Part shown: one piece after another, positions 10,140-48,540 of the stretch | Numbering within the stretch: position 1 is the first letter of the stretch | How the letters are laid out: each line of letters starts with the position of its first letter | Assembly: GCF_011386835.1 (NCBI RefSeq) | Contig: NC_088791.1 | Coordinates: 33,144,998-33,208,997 of the forward strand | Direction of reading: 5' to 3' | DNA length: 64,000 nt | Source of the DNA: Chrysemys picta bellii | Taxonomy: Eukaryota; Chordata; Testudines; Emydidae | Translations under genes and position numbers: made by a program | The notes under the pieces: generated by a model | Told to the model about the DNA's origin: nothing | Database searches by the model: none | The model's input: only the letters and a program-made list of their open reading frames with translations

Positions 10140-11370
10140 AGTTTTCTTGTGATTTTCAAAAGGAAGAAAGGAGAGTAGCAAAATACGGACCCTGGACTTC
10201 AGAAAAGCAGACTTTGACTCCCATAGGGAACTGATGGGCAGGATTTCCTGGAAGGCTAATATGAGGGGGAAAGGAATGCAGGAAAGTTGGCTGTATTTTA
10301 AAGAAGCCTTATTGAGGGCGCAGAAACAAACCATCCTAATGTGCAGAAAGAATAGCAAATATGGCAGGCGACCAGCTTGTTTTAACAATGAAATCTTTGG
10401 TGAGCTTAAACACAAAAAGGAAGCTTACAAGAAGTGGAAACTTGGTCAGTTGACTAGGGAAGAGTATACAAATATTGCTCGAGCATGCAGGGGTGTAATC
10501 AGGAAGGCCAAAACACATCTGGAGTTGCAGCTAGCAAGGGATGTGAAGGGTAACAAGAAGGGTTTCTATAGGTATGTTAGCAACAAGAAAAAGGTCAGAA
10601 AAAGTGTGGGACCCTTAATGAATGGGGGAGGCAACCTAGTGACAGATGATGTGGAAAAGGCTAAAGCACTCAATGCTTTTTTTGCCTTGGTCTTCACAGA
10701 CAAGGTCAGCTCCCACACTGCTGTCCTGGGCAACACAGTATTGGGAAGGAGGTGAGCAGCCCTCAGTGGTGAAAGAACAGGTTAAGGACTATTTAGAAAA
10801 GCTGGACATGCACAAGTCCATGGGTCCAGATCTAATGCATCCAAGGGTGCTGAGGGAATTGGATGATGTGATTGCAGAGCCATTGGCCATTATCTTTGAA
10901 AACTCATGGTGGGGGAGGTCCCAGACAATTGGAAAAAGGCAAATATAGTGCCTATCTTTAAAAAACGGAAGAAGGAGAACCTGGGGAACTACAGACCGGT
11001 CAGCCTCACCTCATTCCCTGGAAAAATCATGGAGCAGGTCCTCAAGGAAACCATTTTGAAGCACTTGGAGGAGAGGAAGGTGATCAGGAACAGAACAAGG
11101 AGCAATGGTTTCAAATTGCAGTGGGGGAGTTCTAGGTTGGATATTAGGAAACATTATTTCACTAGGAGGGTGGTGAAGCACTGGGATGGGTTACCTAGGG
11201 AGGTGGTGGAATCTCCATCCTTAGAGGTTTTTAAGGCCCGGCTTGACAAAGCCCTGGCTGGGATGATTTAGTTGGGGTTGGTCCTGATTTGAGCAGGGGG
11301 TTGAATTAGAAGACCTCCTGAGGTCTCTTCCAAACCTAATCTTCTATGATTCTTCTACCATTCTATGACT
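10140..11370 (+). mobile_element. CR1 LINE copy B with the RT core deleted
   Basis: CR1 copy beginning in the endonuclease-RT linker and ending in the TTCTATGATTCTTC tail near 11341-11370. At about 11092 the sequence jumps from the '[10 protein letters not shown]' codons to '[11 protein letters not shown]', skipping the RT palm and most of the thumb, roughly 1.3 kb compared with copy A. The bases ACAG at the junction occur at both parental breakpoints in other CR1 copies here, suggesting microhomology. Confidence 0.85.
10234..10755 (+). pseudogene. CR1 ORF2 linker and pre-RT fragment
   Basis: A 173-codon open frame, the longest CR1 frame here. It holds the conserved linker between endonuclease and RT: 'MQESWLYFKEALLRAQKQ', 'NNEIFGELKHKKEAYKKWK', 'ACRGVIRKAKTHLELQLARD' and 'GNKKGFYRYVSNKKK', then '[20 protein letters not shown]'. 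The Met at 10234 is internal to the family protein, not a true start. The frame is lost near 10740; the following piece (10756-11270) carries '[22 protein letters not shown]', 'NYRPVSLTS' and the C-terminal block after the deletion. Confidence 0.85.
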
Positions 11371-16724: not shown

Positions 16725-16978
16725 GTCTACTGGGGTATGGACTGAGAGCTTCTCACTTTAGGGAAGAGACCTCAATATTAATGGAAAATGATATTACAAA
16801 AATATTGTGACTTTTTTTAATGTGAGGTCATTAAACTTGTCTGTGCCTTTACTGAAGCTTGGGATGTATTCATTATTTTCACACATATGGTACTTAGAGA
16901 GAAGTACCTCACATGCCCATATTTTTGCTTGTTTAATTATATGAAATATTCAAGCTAGCCAAAAGAATTCCAGGAGGC

Positions 16979-18375
16979 TTTTTTGATCTTCCAGAAAACA
17001 CCATCCTGGCCACTATGGACGTAGAAGCCCTCTACACCAATATTCCACACAAAGATGGACTACAAGCTATCAGGAACAGTATCCCCAATAATGTCACATC
17101 TAACCTGGTGGCTGAACTTTGTGACTTTGTCCTCACCCACAACTATTTCTCATTTGGGGACAATATATACCTTCAAGTCAGCAGCACTGCTATGGGTACC
17201 CGCATGGCCCCACAATATGCCAACATTTTTATGGCTGATTTAGAACAATGCTTCCTTAGCTCTTGTCCCCTAACGCCCCTACTCTACTTGCGCTACATTG
17301 ATGACATCTTCATCATCTGGACCCATGGAAAAGAAGCCCTTGAGGAATTTCACCATGATTTCAATAATTTCCATTCCACCATCAACCTCCGCCTAGATCA
17401 ATCCACACAAGCGGTCCATTTCCTGGACACTACTGTGCTAATAAGCGAAGGTCACATAAATACCACCCTATACCGGAAACCTACTGACCGCTATACTTAC
17501 CTACATGCCTCCAGCTTCCATCCAGGACACACTACACGATCCATTGTCTACAGCCAAGCTCTAAGATATAACCGCATTTGCTCCAATCCCTCAGATAGAG
17601 ACAAGCACCTACAAGATCTCTATCAAGCATTCTTAAAACTACAATACGCACCTGCTGAAGTGAAAAAATAGATTGACAGAGCCAGACGAGTACCCAGAAG
17701 TCACCTCCTACAAGACAGGCCCAACAAAGAAAATAACAGAACACCACTAGCTGTCACCTTCAGCCCCCAACTAAAACCTCTCCACCGCATCATCAGAGAT
17801 CTACAACCTATCCTGAAAGATGATTCTTTACTCTCACAGATCTTGGGAGACAGACCTGTCCTTGCTTACAGACAACCCCCCAACCTAAAGCAAATACTCA
17901 CCAGCAACCACACATCACTGAACAAAACCACTGACCCAGGAACCTATCCTTGTAACAAACCCCGATGCTAACTCTGTCCACATATCTATTCAAGTGACAT
18001 CATCATAGGACCTAATCATATCAGCCATACTATCAGGGGCTCGTTCACCTGCACATCTACCAATGTGATATATGCCATCATGTGCCAGCAATGCCCCTCT
18101 GCCATGTACATTGGCCAAACCGGACAGTCTCTACGCAAAAGAATTAATGGACACAAATCTGACATCAGGAATCATAATACTCAAAAACCAGTGGGAGAAC
18201 ACTTTAACCTATCTGGTCATTCAATGTCAGACCTGCGGGTGGCTATCTACAACAGAAAAACTTCAAAAACAGACTCCAACGAGAGACTGCTGAGCTGGAA
18301 TTGATATGCAAACTAGACACAATCAACTCAGGATTGAATAAGGACTGGGAATGGCTGAGCCATTACAAACATTGA
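16979..18375 (+). pseudogene. Penelope-like reverse transcriptase with GIY-YIG endonuclease, nearly intact frame
   Basis: One frame runs from FDLPENTILATMDVEALYTN (16979) through the RT and the GIY-YIG domain. RT motifs: YTNIPH near 17030, STAMGTRMAPQYAN near 17190, catalytic YIDDIF at 17294-17311, VHFLD near 17415, LYRKPTDRYTYLH near 17470. In-frame stops: TAG at 17669 and TAA at 17969. The linker keeps the PLE Cys cluster (PCNKPRC, then LCPHI). The GIY-YIG part begins VIYAIMCQQC at 18065, with YIGQTG, then LRKRINGH (catalytic Arg region) and KPVGEHF (Glu). A frameshift near 18270 moves the end into another frame, which closes at TGA 18373-18375. Only about three lesions in ~465 codons suggest a fairly young copy. 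Penelope-like enzymes prime reverse transcription at a cut made by the GIY-YIG domain. Confidence 0.88.
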
Positions 18376-18631
18376 ATCTATCTCCCCTTGTAAGTATTCT
18401 CACACTTCTTATCAAACTGTCTGTACTGGGCTATCTTGATTGTCACTTCAAAAGTTTTTTTTCTTCTTACTTAATTGGCCTCTCAGAGTTGGTAAGACAA
18501 CTCCCACCTGTTTATGCTCTCTGTATGTGTGTATATATATCTCCTCAATATTTATTCCACTCTATATGCACCCGAAGAAGTGGGCTGTAGTCCACGAAAG
18601 CTTATGCTCTAATAAATTTGTTAGTCTCTAA

Positions 18632-18927
18632 GGCCTGGTCCACACTAACCCCCCACTTCGGACTAAGGTACGCAAATTCAGCTACGTTAATAACGTAGCT
18701 GAATTCGAAGTACCTTAGTCCGAACTTACCGCAGGTCCAGATGCGGCAGGGAGGCTCCCCCGTCGATGCCGCGTACTCCTCTCGCCGAGCTGGAGTACCG
18801 GCGTCGACGGCGAGCACTTCTGGGATCGATCCGGGATCGATTTATCGCGTCTAGACCAGATGCGATAAATCGATCACAGAACATCGATTGCCTGCCGCCG
18901 GACCCGGAGGTAAGTGTAGACGTACCC
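18632..18927. mobile_element. 296-bp MITE inserted in the Penelope tail, TSD TAA
   Basis: Ends GGCCTGGTCCACAC and GTGTAGACGTACCC form imperfect 14-bp inverted repeats. TAA lies on both sides (18629-18631, 18928-18930); removing the insert and one TAA restores the tail sequence found uninterrupted at 41520-41575. The interior folds: 18657-18725 is a long palindrome and 18830-18880 a second. The 3-bp TAA duplication fits PIF/Harbinger-type elements; assignment is tentative. Confidence 0.85.
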
Positions 18928-18959
18928 TAAGGTGCCACAAGTACTCCTGTTCTTTTTGC

Positions 18960-19840
18960 TTTCTGTCATCCCAGGGACAGACAAACCAAAAGAGAGTTTT
19001 GTCTAGACCAGGACACTTCTCTTTGTATAAATGCCAATTTGGTACAAATGTAACCTTCTCTCAAGAAACCAAACATATAAAACATTAATGTTTTAGGAAA
19101 AGTCCTGATTGTGAAAAGCAATATAGCGTTGTGTGATCGGAGCAATAAATCTAGCTATAAATTGAGCTTTTTCAGTCTCCCAAGAAAAATTTCTAAGTAA
19201 ACCCACACAAAGAATTGTTGAAATGAATTTTATATTAGACCTTTATGCTAAAAACATAATTCAGAAAAGCCTCTAGGAAAAATGTGTATTTGGAAATGTT
19301 TTAAACCTTTGCTTATTTCTTAAGTGTTGAAATGGAAAAATGTTTGGAATGACATATTTGTGAGTATTTTAATTAAATACAAAGCATCTAATGTAATTTC
19401 ATAACATTCTTGATATGTAAATAGAAAAGTGCTTTATGTACCAGCATAGAAATCTAATAATGTTGCAAACTAATTACTAATGTAAGAAGCCATTTAAGGA
19501 GAGAATATTTACATGATGCTAGAAGACCAGGTGCCAGTTCACACAAGAGCCCCAGGCCTAACTTAATGTTTACAAATGCATAGCCAAGTCAATTCACTTG
19601 TGAATTAGTATAGATCAAAGGGATTGTTAAATGTATGTGAGTGCATTTGGTGTTTAAACTTCATGAAAACGAATGGGAGATTACTTGAATTGTTTTCACT
19701 TATCTGTATCCTGTTATAATGTAGTCACAAACATTTACATTGTGTATATCCCTGAAACTAAATAGACCATCAAATGGAAAGAAGTTTTGTGGAATGCAAA
19801 TTAAGCACTTTAACAGAAAAGAGCTAATTTCAAAGCAAGT
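18960..19840. other. No recognisable feature
   Basis: AT-rich non-coding DNA. Confidence 0.6.
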
Positions 19841-22237: not shown

Positions 22238-22539
22238 GGGTACGTCTACACTACCTACCGGATCAGCGGGTAGCGATCGATCTATCGGGGATCGATTTAT
22301 CGCATGTAGTGTAGATGGGATAAATCAATCCCCGATCGCTCTCCCGTCGACTGCTGAACTCCAGCAGTGCGAGAGGCGGAAGCAAAGTCGACGGGGGAGC
22401 CACAGCCATCAATCCAGCGCTGCGAGGACGTGAAATAAGTAATTTTAATTCGATCTAAGATACATCGACTTCAGCTACGCTATTCTCTTAGCGGAAGTTG
22501 CGTATCTTAGATCGAGCCCCTCCCCGTGTAGACCAGGCC
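22238..22539. mobile_element. 302-bp MITE related to 18632-18927, TSD TCT
   Basis: Opens GGGTACGTCTACAC and closes GTGTAGACCAGGCC, the same two termini as the MITE at 18632 in opposite orientation. TCT flanks both sides (22235-22237, 22540-22542). Internal palindromes lie around ATCGATTTATCGC and TCTAAGATACATCGA. Confidence 0.8.
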
Positions 22540-41290: not shown

Positions 41291-41491
41291 CCTCTCTTAC
41301 CAACTTGGACCCTGACCTTCTTTATGATTAGCACTGCCACACCTGCATTGGGACACAGGTTACAGATATATTTATAGTTGGATACATTTAGGCAAATGTA
41401 CAGCATAGCGATTTGAGAATTTCTGTGTATTTATTTCAATATTTATTAGGATGCAAGTGTGGAGCATTGTTGAAGAGACTGTAAAGAAGTA

Positions 41492-41609
41492 AAAAGAATA
41501 GGAGTACTTGTGGCACCTTAGAGACTAACAAATGTATTAGTCTCTAAGGTGCCACAAGTACTCCTGTTCTTTTTGCGGATACAGACTAACACGGCTGCTA
41601 CTCTGAAAC
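41492..41609. mobile_element. 118-bp Penelope terminal fragment with inverted tail, 13-bp TSD
   Basis: The segment 41492-41535 is an inverted copy of the Penelope tail and meets a sense copy at about 41536-41575, followed by ACACGGCTGCTACTCTGAAAC. CTGTAAAGAAGTA flanks it exactly (41479-41491, 41610-41622). Inverted partial terminal copies are typical of Penelope-like insertions. Confidence 0.88.
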
Positions 41610-43705
41610 CTGTAAAGAAGTAGGATTTGAAATAGAAAAAGGAGGTAGTGCAGAGTGCATGGTGATGAACATTCTAACCACCAGGGGGTAGCATGGTAGA
41701 AAGCACAGTTTCACTCTTGGTAGAGGAAGGTCATAAGCATGACCATTAAAAGAAGTACAATTACAATGTCTGCTTTCCTGTTCATTATTTTGTGGTGCAT
41801 GTGGCAACTTGCTGTACAAAGCACAGTACAGGTATATACTGCATCATATTAACATAGTGCAAAGTATTTGATATTATCTCGTGGTGGTGAGGAGATCAGT
41901 TATTCAAACAGTGCTACATAGTTCCCAAGCTGCAGAACTGTGTGTCATGGGATATGGGAATATTAATGACTGCTAATAGTTCTGTTGGACCAATCATAAG
42001 AGAGTACTCAGGAACTGGACACTCACATTTTTGTGAACAGTACCAGAAAAGAAATGACCACTTCATCTACCAGGGCAATGCTATAGTTAAGTATTTTCTT
42101 CTTTTGCTGTATCTTAAGAAGAGTTTAGCTCATAATTGCTTTGATGATGGAGATGGTATGAAGACCTAAACTACACTGCTTTATGTATGTATGTATTTTT
42201 TTTACTATATCTTCAAAATACCTCTTTGGTTTTATCTGATATGAATTGAATCTGGCTGTTTTAACTGGGAAAATTATAGCTGTATTGAACCATCTTTTTA
42301 AAGTTTATTTATAGACATGCACAATTATCTTTAAAAATCCAGTAATAGTTGTTCACATGAAAAAAGTCTAACTTTTTTCTGTACTTGCATCCCTTCTGTT
42401 AGTTTTCCATAAATATTCCTAGCAAATTAGATTATTGGCAAGAATTACTGTGAGATTACTGTGGGTATTTCCACTGAAAACCCAAGTCTGAGAATTATGC
42501 TTCTCTAATGAAGGAATGTAACTAATTTAATATAAACCTCATGACTAATCAATAAGGATATATTTCAGATATAGAATATTTACAAAACTTACTCTTAATC
42601 TGTAGACAAAGAAGTGGGGGATGCAGAGAGAAGCAGACAAAACGTTTTTTAAATTGGAAATAAGGATGTAAATATGTATCAAAACCCTTTATAGGACAAT
42701 GAAATGATAAAACCCACAAATGTCTGAAGGTTAGGCTATTCAAAGGCAATGTTACACTTATTTTAAAAACTTCTCAAATGTATTTCATTGTCCAAATATC
42801 ACAATAGATATTTCTGACATATCAGTTGTCATCTTTAAAGTTTAGTTGTCATGTAACATGTCTTCACACATCTCATTTATTGTCCAGTACACTATTAATG
42901 AAAGGACAATATATGAGGATTAATAAGAAAGAGATATCTGGATCCAGCTAATTAAATGGATGACAAACAAAGAGCAGATTAGCATAATATATGTTAATAT
43001 ATGCTAACATTGAACTATACCACAACAATACAAAGGTCAAAATGATCAAATGTGAGTGCCTAAAGTTAGGTACCTATATGCTTATTTAGCCACCCATATA
43101 ACTGACCTGATTTTCAGAGAAGCTCAGCTCACTGAGGGCTGCAAACGTTCAAATGGGACTGTGATTACGCCACACCTCTCAAAATCAGGTCAATTAAATA
43201 TGGAACTAGTTGCCTAACTTCAAGTACCCGGTTTTCAAACTTTTGGCCAAAGGTCTTTGGTATTAAATGCGCATTCTATCAAGTTGACCAAGATCACTGT
43301 TACTATTCATTGCATAATGCAAATTGTCCCTGGAAAGATGTTTAATGCTATTGATTGGAAAGGTTGGCCCACTAGCATAATATGACAAATAATGGACTCC
43401 ACAGAGCAAAACTGTAGCACAATTCAAGACATGAGCGCATACCAAAGAGCTGCCTCATTGTTCATGTAATTACAAGTTAAAAGAGTATCATTTCACCTAA
43501 CAACACTAAATACTTTTGTTAGTATAGGAAATATTATGGGCTTGATTCTGCTGCTATTAAAGTCAATCATAAAACTCCCATTGGCCTAAATTGGGCAGGA
43601 TTGTGCCCAATTGTTGAATACTCAAAGAATACTAGACCATATATATGAGATATGTTAATGCTGACATTTAATACCATTGAATGAGAGAAAGAAGCTTTAT
43701 GATTT

Positions 43706-45418: not shown

Positions 45419-45549
45419 GTGTCACTAGGAGGGCTTTGGCTTCCTTGACCACAGGATGCTGTTCTGGGAAGAAGGATTGCTAAGCAGAGATGGGGGTCCA
45501 CCTATCAAGGAAAGGGAAGAATATATTTGGATACACATTGGATAACCTA

Positions 45550-45657
45550 CAGGTTTCAGAGTAGCAGCAGTGTTAGTCTGTATCCGTAAAAAGAACAGGA
45601 GTACTTGTGGCACCTTAGAGAGTAACAAATTTATTTGAGCATAATGCAATTATGCTA
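45550..45657 (-). mobile_element. Penelope terminal fragment inside CR1 copy E, about 12-bp TSD
   Basis: AGGTTTCAGAGTAGCAGC through TTTATTTGAGCATAA is the inverted Penelope tail. TTGGATAACCTA (45538-45549) and TTGGCTAACCTA (45658-45669) flank it with one difference. It therefore inserted after CR1 copy E. Confidence 0.85.
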
Positions 45658-45829
45658 TTGGCTAACCTAGTTAGGAGGGCTTTAAACTAAGTTAAATGTG
45701 GGCAGGAGACAAAAGCCCATAGATAAGTCAAAAACATGGAAACCCAGGAGAAGGGTTGGAATCTGAGGCTGTTATAGCAGGGATAAAGGATAGACAAGAG
45801 AAAACATAAGTGGGAAATCAAATCAGTAT

Positions 45830-46560
45830 CTTAGATGTCTGTATACTAATGTGAGAAGTATGGGGAATAAGCATGAAGAACTAAAAATTCTAGTTAATAA
45901 ATACAACTGTGACATAGATGGCATCACAGAATTTGGTGGGATAATACACGTGACTGGAATATTGGTGTAGAAGAGTACAGCTTGCTTAGGAAGGACAGGC
46001 AGCGAAAAAGCAAGGAGGTGTTGCCCTATATATCAAAAATGTATACACTTGGACTGAAGTTGAAATGGAAATAGGAGACAGACTTGTTGAAAGTCTCTGG
46101 GTAAGGATAAAGGGATAAAAAACAAGGGTGATGTCATGGTAGGGGTCTACTATAGACCACCTAACCAGGAAGAAGAGTTGGATGAGGCTTTTTTTAAACA
46201 ACTAATACAATCATCTAAATCATCCACAGGACTTGGTGGTGATGGGGGACTTCAACTACCCAGACATCTGTTGGGAAAATAACACACCAGTGTACAGATT
46301 ATCCAACAAGTTCTGGGAATATATTGGAAACCATTTTTTTTATTTCAGAAGGTGGAGAAAGCTTTAGGGGAGAGGCTGTTCTAGATTTGATTTTGACAAA
46401 TAGCGAGGAACTGGTTGAGAATTTGAAAGGCAGCTTGGGTGAAAGTGATTATGAAATGATACAGTTCACGATTCTAAGGAATGGTAGGAGGGAAAACAGT
46501 ACAATAACGATAATGGATTTCAAGAAGGCAGACTTTAGCAAACTGGTAAGATTCCATGGG
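45830..46560 (+). pseudogene. CR1 AP-endonuclease domain relic
   Basis: Broken frames show the LINE endonuclease: 'NKYNCDIDGITE' followed by a shifted 'WWDNTRDWNIG' region, 'SLLRKD', 'GGVALYIKNVYTWTEVE', 'GVYYRPPNQEEE', then [10 protein letters not shown] near 46232-46262, the catalytic DFN box. An open 82-codon block (46324-46572) carries '[35 protein letters not shown]', where the family Asp-His is Asp-Tyr. This domain nicks target DNA to start reverse transcription; here frameshifts and stops disable it. Confidence 0.8.
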
Positions 46561-46599
46561 AAGCATATCTAAGGGGAAAAACAGTTCAAGAGAGACATT

Positions 46600-48540
46600 A
46601 TTAAGGGGACAAGAGTAACATTTTCAAAGAGACATTACTAAGGGCACAAGAGTAAACTACCCACTGCATAGGAAAGATAGCAAGTATGGCAGAGAGACAG
46701 CTTAACTAGGAGATCTTCAATGATCTTAAACTCAAAAAAGAGTTCTACAAAAAGTGGAAACTAGGTCAAATGCAAAAGGGTGAATATAATCAAATAACAC
46801 AAGTATGTAGGGACAAAATTAGAAAGGTGAAGACACAAAATGAGATGAAACTAGCTAGAGACATAAAGGGTAACAAGAAAACATTCTACAAATACATCAG
46901 AAGCAAGAGAAAGACCAAGGACAGGGTAGGTCTGTTATTCAATGAGGGGGAAAAACAATAACAGAAAATGTGGGAATGGCAAAAGTTCTAAATGACTTTT
47001 ATGTTTCAATTTTCAACTAAATTTTAGTAGCAATTGGAATCTAACAGTGAATGCCAGTGAAAATGAAATAGGATCAGAGGCTAAAATAGGGAAAGAACAA
47101 GTTAAGAATTACTTAGACAAGTTAGATGTCTTCAGGTCACCAGAATCTGATTAAATACTTCCTAGAATACTCAAGGAGCTGACTGAGGAGATATCTGCAA
47201 TTATCTTAAAAAAGTCATGGAAGACAGGAGAGATTCCAGAGGACTGGAAAAGGGCAAATATAGTACCAGCCTATAAAAAGGGGAATAAGGACAATTACAG
47301 ACCAGTCAGCTTTACTTCATTACCTGGAAAAATAATGAAGCAAATAATTTAGCAATCAGTTTGCAAACACCTAGAAGATAATAAGGTGATAAGTAACAAT
47401 CAGCATGGATTTGTCAAGAACAAATAATTTCAAATCAACCTAATAGCTTTCTTTGACAAGGCTTGTGGATAGGGGGGAAGCAGTAGATGTGGTATATCTT
47501 GACTTTAGTAAGGCTTTTGATACTGTGTCGCATGACCTCATAAACAAACTAGGAAAATACAATCTAGACGAAGCTACTATAAGGTGAGTGCATAACTGAT
47601 TGGAAAACCATTCCCAGAGAGTAGTTATCAGAGGTTCACAGTCAAGCTAGAAGGGCATACAGTATCAAGTGGGGTCCTGCAGGGATCAGTTCTGGGTCCG
47701 GTTCTGTTCAATATTTCATCAGTGAATTAGATAATGTCATAGAGAGTACACTTACAAATTTTGCGGATGATACCAAGGTGAGAGGGCTTGCAAGTGCTTC
47801 GGAGGATAGGATTAAAATTCAAAAGATCTGGACAAATTGAAGAAATGGTCTGAAGTAAATCGGATGAAATTCAATAAGGACAAACGCGAAGTATTCCACT
47901 TAGGAAGGAACAACCACATACAAAATGGGAAATGATGGCCTAGGAAGGAGTACTGCGGAAAGGGATCTGGAGGTCATTGTGAATCACAAGCTAAATATGA
48001 GTTAACGGTTGAGTTTGGGGGGTTGTTTCAAGTTTAACACTGTTGCAACAACAACAAAAAAGCAAACATAATTCTGTATTAGCAGGAGTGTTGTAAGCAA
48101 GACATGAGAAGTAATTCTGCTCTACTCCATGTTGATTAGGCCTCAACAGGAGTATTGTGTCCATTTCTGGGCTCCACATTTCAGGCAAGATATAGACAAA
48201 TTCGAGAAAGTCCAAAGAAGAGCAACAAAAATGATTAAAGGTCTAGAAAACATGATCTATGGGAAGATTGAAAATTTTGGTTTGTTTAGTCTGGAAAAGA
48301 GAAGACTGAGCAGGGACATGATTTTTTCAAGTACATACAAAATTGTTGCAAGGAGGAGAGAGAAAAATGATTCTCATTAATCTCTGAACATAGGGCAAGA
48401 AGCAATGACTTAAATTGCAGTAAGGGAAGTTTAGGTTGGACATTAGGAAATATTTCCTGTCTGGGTAGTTGAGCACTGGAATAAATTGCTAGGGAGGTTG
48501 TGAATTCTCCATCATTGGAGCTTTTTAAGAGCAGGTTAGG
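46600..48540 (+). pseudogene. CR1 reverse transcriptase relic, copy E
   Basis: Linker block 46690-46961 ('[30 protein letters not shown]' style). RT in broken frames: 'NYRPVSFTSLPGKIM' near 47295, 'NQHGFVK' near 47400, 'VVYLDFSKAFDTVSHDLINKL' at 47490-47550, 'GVLQGSVLGPVLF' region near 47670, 'FADDTKV' near 47760-47780 with both catalytic Asp, 'LGRN' near 47905, 'LIRPQQEYCVHFWAPHFRQDIDKFEKVQRRATKMIKGLE' at 48129-48260. At least six frameshifts or stops. Both catalytic domains are recognisable, so it is an eroded near-full copy. Confidence 0.85.

Follow-up and report, generated by a model that had tools for sequence, protein, structure and literature searches.

We found that positions 16985-18959 of a 64,000-nucleotide stretch of Chrysemys picta bellii DNA (the window, in its full length) are very probably a dead, 5′-truncated copy of an endonuclease-bearing turtle Penelope-like element (PLE) of the Cys-linker (Neptune-like) type. 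Its domains, lesions, truncation and 3′ end, as well as its kinship to Chrysemys and Malaclemys proteins, are established by the sequence and by comparison with relatives.

Identity and layout of the element

Translation of the region 16979-18959 gives a reverse transcriptase (RT) and a GIY-YIG endonuclease in one shared frame. With the stops read through as X, Pfam recognised RVT_1 at 1.5e-10 and GIY-YIG at 1.2e-5, both far above chance. The RT domain is thus followed by the GIY-YIG domain in one open reading frame (ORF), the arrangement of endonuclease-bearing PLEs, and the endonuclease conforms to the I-TevI-like fold of its class. The original prediction had called the element Penelope-like, and this identity is upheld. 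Its placement of the RT block at 17015 and the GIY-YIG block at 18065, 1050 bases apart and in the same frame, also agrees with the letters and their translation. The shared frame is no sign of youth, however, because it is the normal layout of PLEs, which consist of a single ORF (PMC11167929). The parts of the copy are as follows.

16985-17668, + strand: remainder of the RT, beginning at the MDV Asp motif and including YIDD (tblastn of relatives, Pfam RVT_1, motifs in relatives)
17669-17671, + strand: in-frame stop TAG (letters; relatives carry a standard residue)
17672-17968, + strand: end of the RT and RT-endonuclease linker (translation, alignment of relatives)
17969-17971, + strand: in-frame stop TAA within the linker Cys cluster C-x4-C-x2-C (letters; relatives carry a standard residue)
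17972-18246, + strand: first part of the GIY-YIG endonuclease, with VIY, YIGQTG, LRKR and GHK (Pfam GIY-YIG, alignment)
18247-18375, + strand: endonuclease C-terminus in a shifted frame (tblastn of P0001 residues 545-586, 100% identity)
18376-18560, + strand: 185 bases of 3′ untranslated sequence, lying between stop codon and hairpin
18561-18608, + strand: tentative hammerhead-like hairpin, core CCGAAGA ... GAAA (sequence)
18609-18631, + strand: PLE 3′ end before the nested transposon (matches the 41.5 kb and 45.6 kb copies)
18632-18927, no strand assigned: 296-base transposon inserted in the tail (TAA duplication; the PLE sequence runs without a break at about 41536-41576)
18931-18959, + strand: PLE 3′ end after the nested transposon, without the 34-base optional tail (100% match to 41544-41576; the extension follows at 41577)

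Lesions, truncation and loss of function

The in-frame remnant comprises about 463 codons, in substance the roughly 465 near-open codons that had been proposed, and is divided into open stretches of 228, 99 and 91 codons. The stops at 17669-17671 and 17969-17971 are the only ones ahead of the frameshift, exactly as predicted. The late frameshift is real as well, but it lies at about 18247 and not near 18270: in tblastn the match to the nearest relative, P0001, runs through 16985-18268 in frame 2 and continues in frame 1 over 18247-18372, there at 100% identity. A stop codon follows directly at 18373-18375, and P0001 ends at the same place.

A further defect, which had been missed, is that the copy is 5′-truncated. 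Homology begins at 16985, corresponding to residue 124 of P0001, and the first part of the RT is gone; in other relatives the tblastn match starts at residue 215 (P0007), 235 (P0010) or 245 (P0015). Through this truncation the RT motifs before MDV, namely the N-terminal DKG, LPKIHK and GRPI present in relatives such as these three, are absent from the copy, an absence that concerns its intactness and not its kinship.

Our protein search with the read-through translation returned 1021 proteins at E <= 0.001, the best 120 of which were used for the residue counts given here. Of the motifs described as kept, four are indeed there (YIDDIF, the linker Cys cluster, YIGQTG and LRKR). The EHF Glu, seen in only 46 of 75 covering relatives, is however not the conserved residue. 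The conserved endonuclease Glu stands some 30 residues further on, in 66 of the 68 relatives that cover it; its correspondence to I-TevI E75 was counted from aligned ranges and not from a printed residue pair. In the copy it falls at 18292-18294, behind the frameshift and out of frame, so that the reading frame lacks the catalytic Glu. With two stops, one frameshift and the N-terminal part missing, the copy does not have the full-length ORF of an active autonomous PLE, and as it stands it would be incapable of transposing on its own, because the first part of the protein is missing.

Relatives carry a standard residue at both stops, in 100 of 100 covering rows at 17669 and in 84 of 84 at 17969. 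These relatives are predicted proteins, and a protein database by nature favours open frames; the rows show that the stops are not common to all copies and do not give the fraction of copies that share them.

Relatives and group membership

The top matches (best 120 of 1021) are from turtles: Chrysemys, Caretta, Lepidochelys, Natator, Gopherus and Malaclemys. A 33-row tree places the copy beside P0001, P0043 and P0062 of Chrysemys and P0047 of Malaclemys (support 100/99), on an end branch of 0.016 changes per column. Most sea-turtle rows and the tortoise rows form separate sets, and by this placement the window probably stems from an emydid or a close relative. Rows of the wider family include shark, alligator, echinoderms and tick.

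Between RT and endonuclease lies a Cys-rich domain, whose three C-x4-C-x2-C cysteines are kept in 83, 83 and 84 of the 85 covering relatives. All three are also kept in the copy, where the second stop interrupts the cluster. Such a stretch is the trait named for Neptune in the excerpt of PMC3846280, and it supports membership of the turtle PLE in the Neptune group, an assignment by this trait alone. The copy also resembles the PLEs of turtles, among which the Repbase name Penelope-2_CPB stands in a table of PMC9004415, in having RT then GIY-YIG in one frame, a turtle host and turtle annotations as nearest proteins; it differs in lacking the first part of the protein.

Pieces of PLE are also found in turtle host-gene isoforms, namely those of a TANGO2 homologue, MVB12B, DNAJB13, endothelin-3 and WDR86 (hits P0005, P0017, P0018, P0068 and P0108), reflecting either exon capture or gene-model error. 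Searching solved structures by sequence gave none for the RT piece at E <= 0.1 and none for the endonuclease piece at E <= 1; a profile search against them gave four weak matches (best E 0.1). In a further search, no PLE structure was among the 50 matches listed.

Decay, age and past activity

Judged against five close relatives, the private replacements of the copy number 12 over 420 columns. Each of those relatives shows 2 to 5 private residues over its 188 to 420 columns; for P0001, counted at columns with two or more relatives present, there are only 2 among 420. The implied nucleotide change of the copy is 1.29-1.39% per site. Under neutral change with 12 replacements, 0.51-0.63 stops would be expected and 2 are observed (P 0.09-0.13). 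Furthermore, the private change at codon 17183 strikes a nearly invariant Gly. The frame gives no sign of maintenance, and its lesions fit plain neutral decay.

A copy that keeps RT and endonuclease mostly in frame might instead be a host-adopted (domesticated) gene fragment held by selection. The three long open stretches and the several annotated turtle host-gene isoforms with pieces of PLE would agree with this. We nevertheless consider it scarcely credible, given two stops and a frameshift with the stops exceeding the neutral mean, the replaced Gly, and the loss from the frame of both the first RT part and the conserved endonuclease Glu.

Lesion load was also compared with that of three CR1 copies of the window:

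740-1664: CR1 copy of about 308 codons, shifting frame once and broken by three stops (1038, 1068 and 1203) in its interior
10153-11091: CR1 copy whose matched stretches, about 313 codons, shift frame twice but contain no stop
46357-47825: CR1 copy with more frame changes and several stops

The claim that the PLE carries far fewer lesions than any other element here fails, as the CR1 copy at 10153-11091 equals it in density (0.64 lesions per 100 codons, against 0.65 for the PLE with 3 in 463). The PLE is among the less damaged elements, because the two other CR1 copies are more broken. At 10153-11353, a large internal deletion after 11091 joins the CR1 copy to its own 3′ end. A 136-residue CR1 fragment (P0127), on a 412-base contig filed under Listeria monocytogenes, is most likely vertebrate contamination.

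At 6e-10 changes per site per year, the Testudo rate in the excerpt of PMC11315351, the copy would be about 22 million years old, with a sampling error from the 12 events alone of near 30%. This supports past activity of the subfamily in the emydid-like lineage, on the order of 20 million years ago, and the close relatives with open frames suggest that the family spread in the lineage of this turtle fairly late by turtle standards. The recent Penelope activity that had been proposed for the lineage holds in a weak sense, through the tight Chrysemys/Malaclemys set, the sense residues at both stops and the roughly 1.3% private divergence. The reasons offered for it do not carry it, because frame sharing is normal, a CR1 copy is just as densely damaged, and neutral decay accounts for the kind of lesions seen.

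Two other datings have to be weighed. In favour of an element currently active in the species, with the copy a very young insertion, are the open frames of close relatives and the few private residues of P0001. We judge this very unlikely, since the copy has three lesions, about 1.3% change, a nested transposon and a truncation. Turtle DNA is moreover stated to change at about one third of the human rate (excerpt of PMC4054807), so that even little decay means many million years. Conversely, the copy might stem from an old burst and owe its youthful look to this slow change. The low rates in the excerpts of PMC4054807 and PMC11315351 favour such an origin, as does the presence of relatives in shark, alligator, echinoderms and tick, which makes the family at large ancient. 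However, the copy is not basal but lies within the tight Chrysemys/Malaclemys set, apart from the sea-turtle and tortoise rows, and we regard an old burst as unlikely, though less so than a very young insertion.

The preferred reading, a dead copy left by activity some 20 million years ago, has several points against it. The date comes from amino-acid differences to five relatives, four of which cover no more than roughly half of it (188-218 columns out of 420), and it uses one published rate from another turtle family. The relatives were drawn from a source biased to open frames. There is no clean target duplication for this copy: close to its ends nothing rose above chance (53 of 300 shuffles), and a candidate of 11 bases with one mismatch, equalled in 8 of 300 shuffles, runs into the 3′ end of the element itself. 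Accepting this candidate would also leave 54 bases, 16931-16984, unaccounted for ahead of the point where PLE homology begins.

The history of the copy may then have run as follows. A source element elsewhere would have made the RT-endonuclease protein, whose endonuclease would have nicked the target and whose telomerase-like RT would have copied the element RNA from an internal start site. Copying may have stopped early within the RT gene, or the 5′ part may have been lost later, either of which would leave a copy without the first RT part. After insertion, neutral decay would have brought two nonsense changes, one frame lesion and the 12 private replacements, and a small DNA transposon would later have hopped into the tail.

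PLEs in turtles have already been reported, with 139,606 PLEs covering 30.0 Mb in Testudo graeca (excerpt of PMC11315351) and PLEs as the third repeat class named in the excerpt of PMC9098631 on Mauremys mutica. The copy is ordinary, one of an abundant kind, and matters little by itself because turtle genomes hold very many such copies. The observation is likewise real, ordinary and partly misread; the useful corrections are that a single frame is normal for PLEs, that the conserved Glu is not that of EHF, and that the 5′ break bars solo action.

The 3′ end of the copy

The original prediction had missed two features of the 3′ end, the nested transposon and the lack of an optional 3′ tail. The 296-base transposon at 18632-18927 in the PLE tail is flanked by a TAA duplication at 18629-18631 and 18928-18930 and has terminal repeats matching at 13 of 19 positions. 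By its traits it would be Harbinger-like. A 6-base duplication was considered for it and dropped for its poor terminal repeats, the TAA setting having given the 13/19 match. The transposon has strong internal inverted repeats, and a diverged inverted relative (69% identity) lies at 22238-22510. The PLE copy itself ends at 18959 without the 34-base optional tail.

The hairpin at 18561-18608 is presumably hammerhead-like, by likeness and not by a model match. Rfam gave no hammerhead at gathering score in the window and none at E <= 10 in 18380-18980. This reading is only tentative because the fold is no better than that of shuffles (z -0.70, 48 of 200 as good). Five weak Rfam matches in 18380-18980 (best E 0.07, far under gathering scores), four of them inside the nested transposon, were taken as chance. 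The 5′ junction of the main copy gave no support for an inverted tail (a fraction of 0.076 of 1000 shuffles scored as well), and a 25-base tail pattern found 0 matches in a viral contig collection.

Tail-only insertions and the start of reverse transcription

Two further insertions of the PLE family in the window hold the tail region only:

41491-41609, + strand: tail-only insertion, 119 bases, an inverted piece (about 41491-41533) then a direct piece with tail (local score 75; the highest among 1000 shuffles was 25)
45550-45656, - strand: tail-only insertion with tail (blastn, sequence)

The 41.5 kb insertion is flanked (41478-41622) by a repeat of 14 bases with one mismatch, as long in 1 of 300 shuffles, and the 45.6 kb insertion (45537-45669) by one of 13 bases with one mismatch, as long in 0 of 300. 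By eye only, the latter also has a short inverted start. Both carry 34 extra bases, in exact letters at 41.5 kb and slightly diverged at 45.6 kb. The combination of pseudo-long terminal repeat (pLTR), optional tail, inverted 5′ piece and short target duplication is found for the family at 41.5 kb and 45.6 kb, whereas the main copy lacks the tail and shows neither a supported inverted piece nor a clean duplication. A similar arrangement to that at 41.5 kb is described in the excerpt of PMC3846280 for Penelope in Adineta vaga (Pen2a_Av), with an inverted 5′-side pLTR piece 37 bases shorter, an optional 31-base tail and a 9-base target duplication; the turtle insertion differs in having the tail region only and no ORF.

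Counted from the hammerhead-like GCTC, the turtle elements end after 51 bases or, where the 34 added bases are present, after 85. The near site is the end of the truncated copy and also of the inverted 41.5 kb piece, which starts within two bases of the main copy's end point; the direct pieces of the two tail-only insertions, at 41.5 kb and 45.6 kb, run on to the far site. In the Poseidon-type Anolis element PAc, the tail extends from one of two RT start sites to the other, and RT starts at +111 to +118 with the ribozyme cutting at +26, which is 85-92 bases apart (PMC11167929). By analogy, it is a real though tentative possibility that in turtle Cys-linker PLEs, as in PAc in vitro, reverse transcription begins at the same two internal sites, separated by about 34 bases and lying about 51 and 85 bases past the hammerhead-like hairpin. 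The optional tail of 30-40 bases between two start sites, with a hammerhead upstream (PMC11167929), would have its turtle counterpart in the 34 bases and the tentative hairpin; the two elements differ in that PAc belongs to another PLE group, that the turtle hairpin is unrecognised by Rfam, and that the turtle starts are inferred from few genomic ends only. If true, a two-site start would be common to both big PLE groups. The tail-only insertions offer a compact view of the formation of turtle PLE ends.
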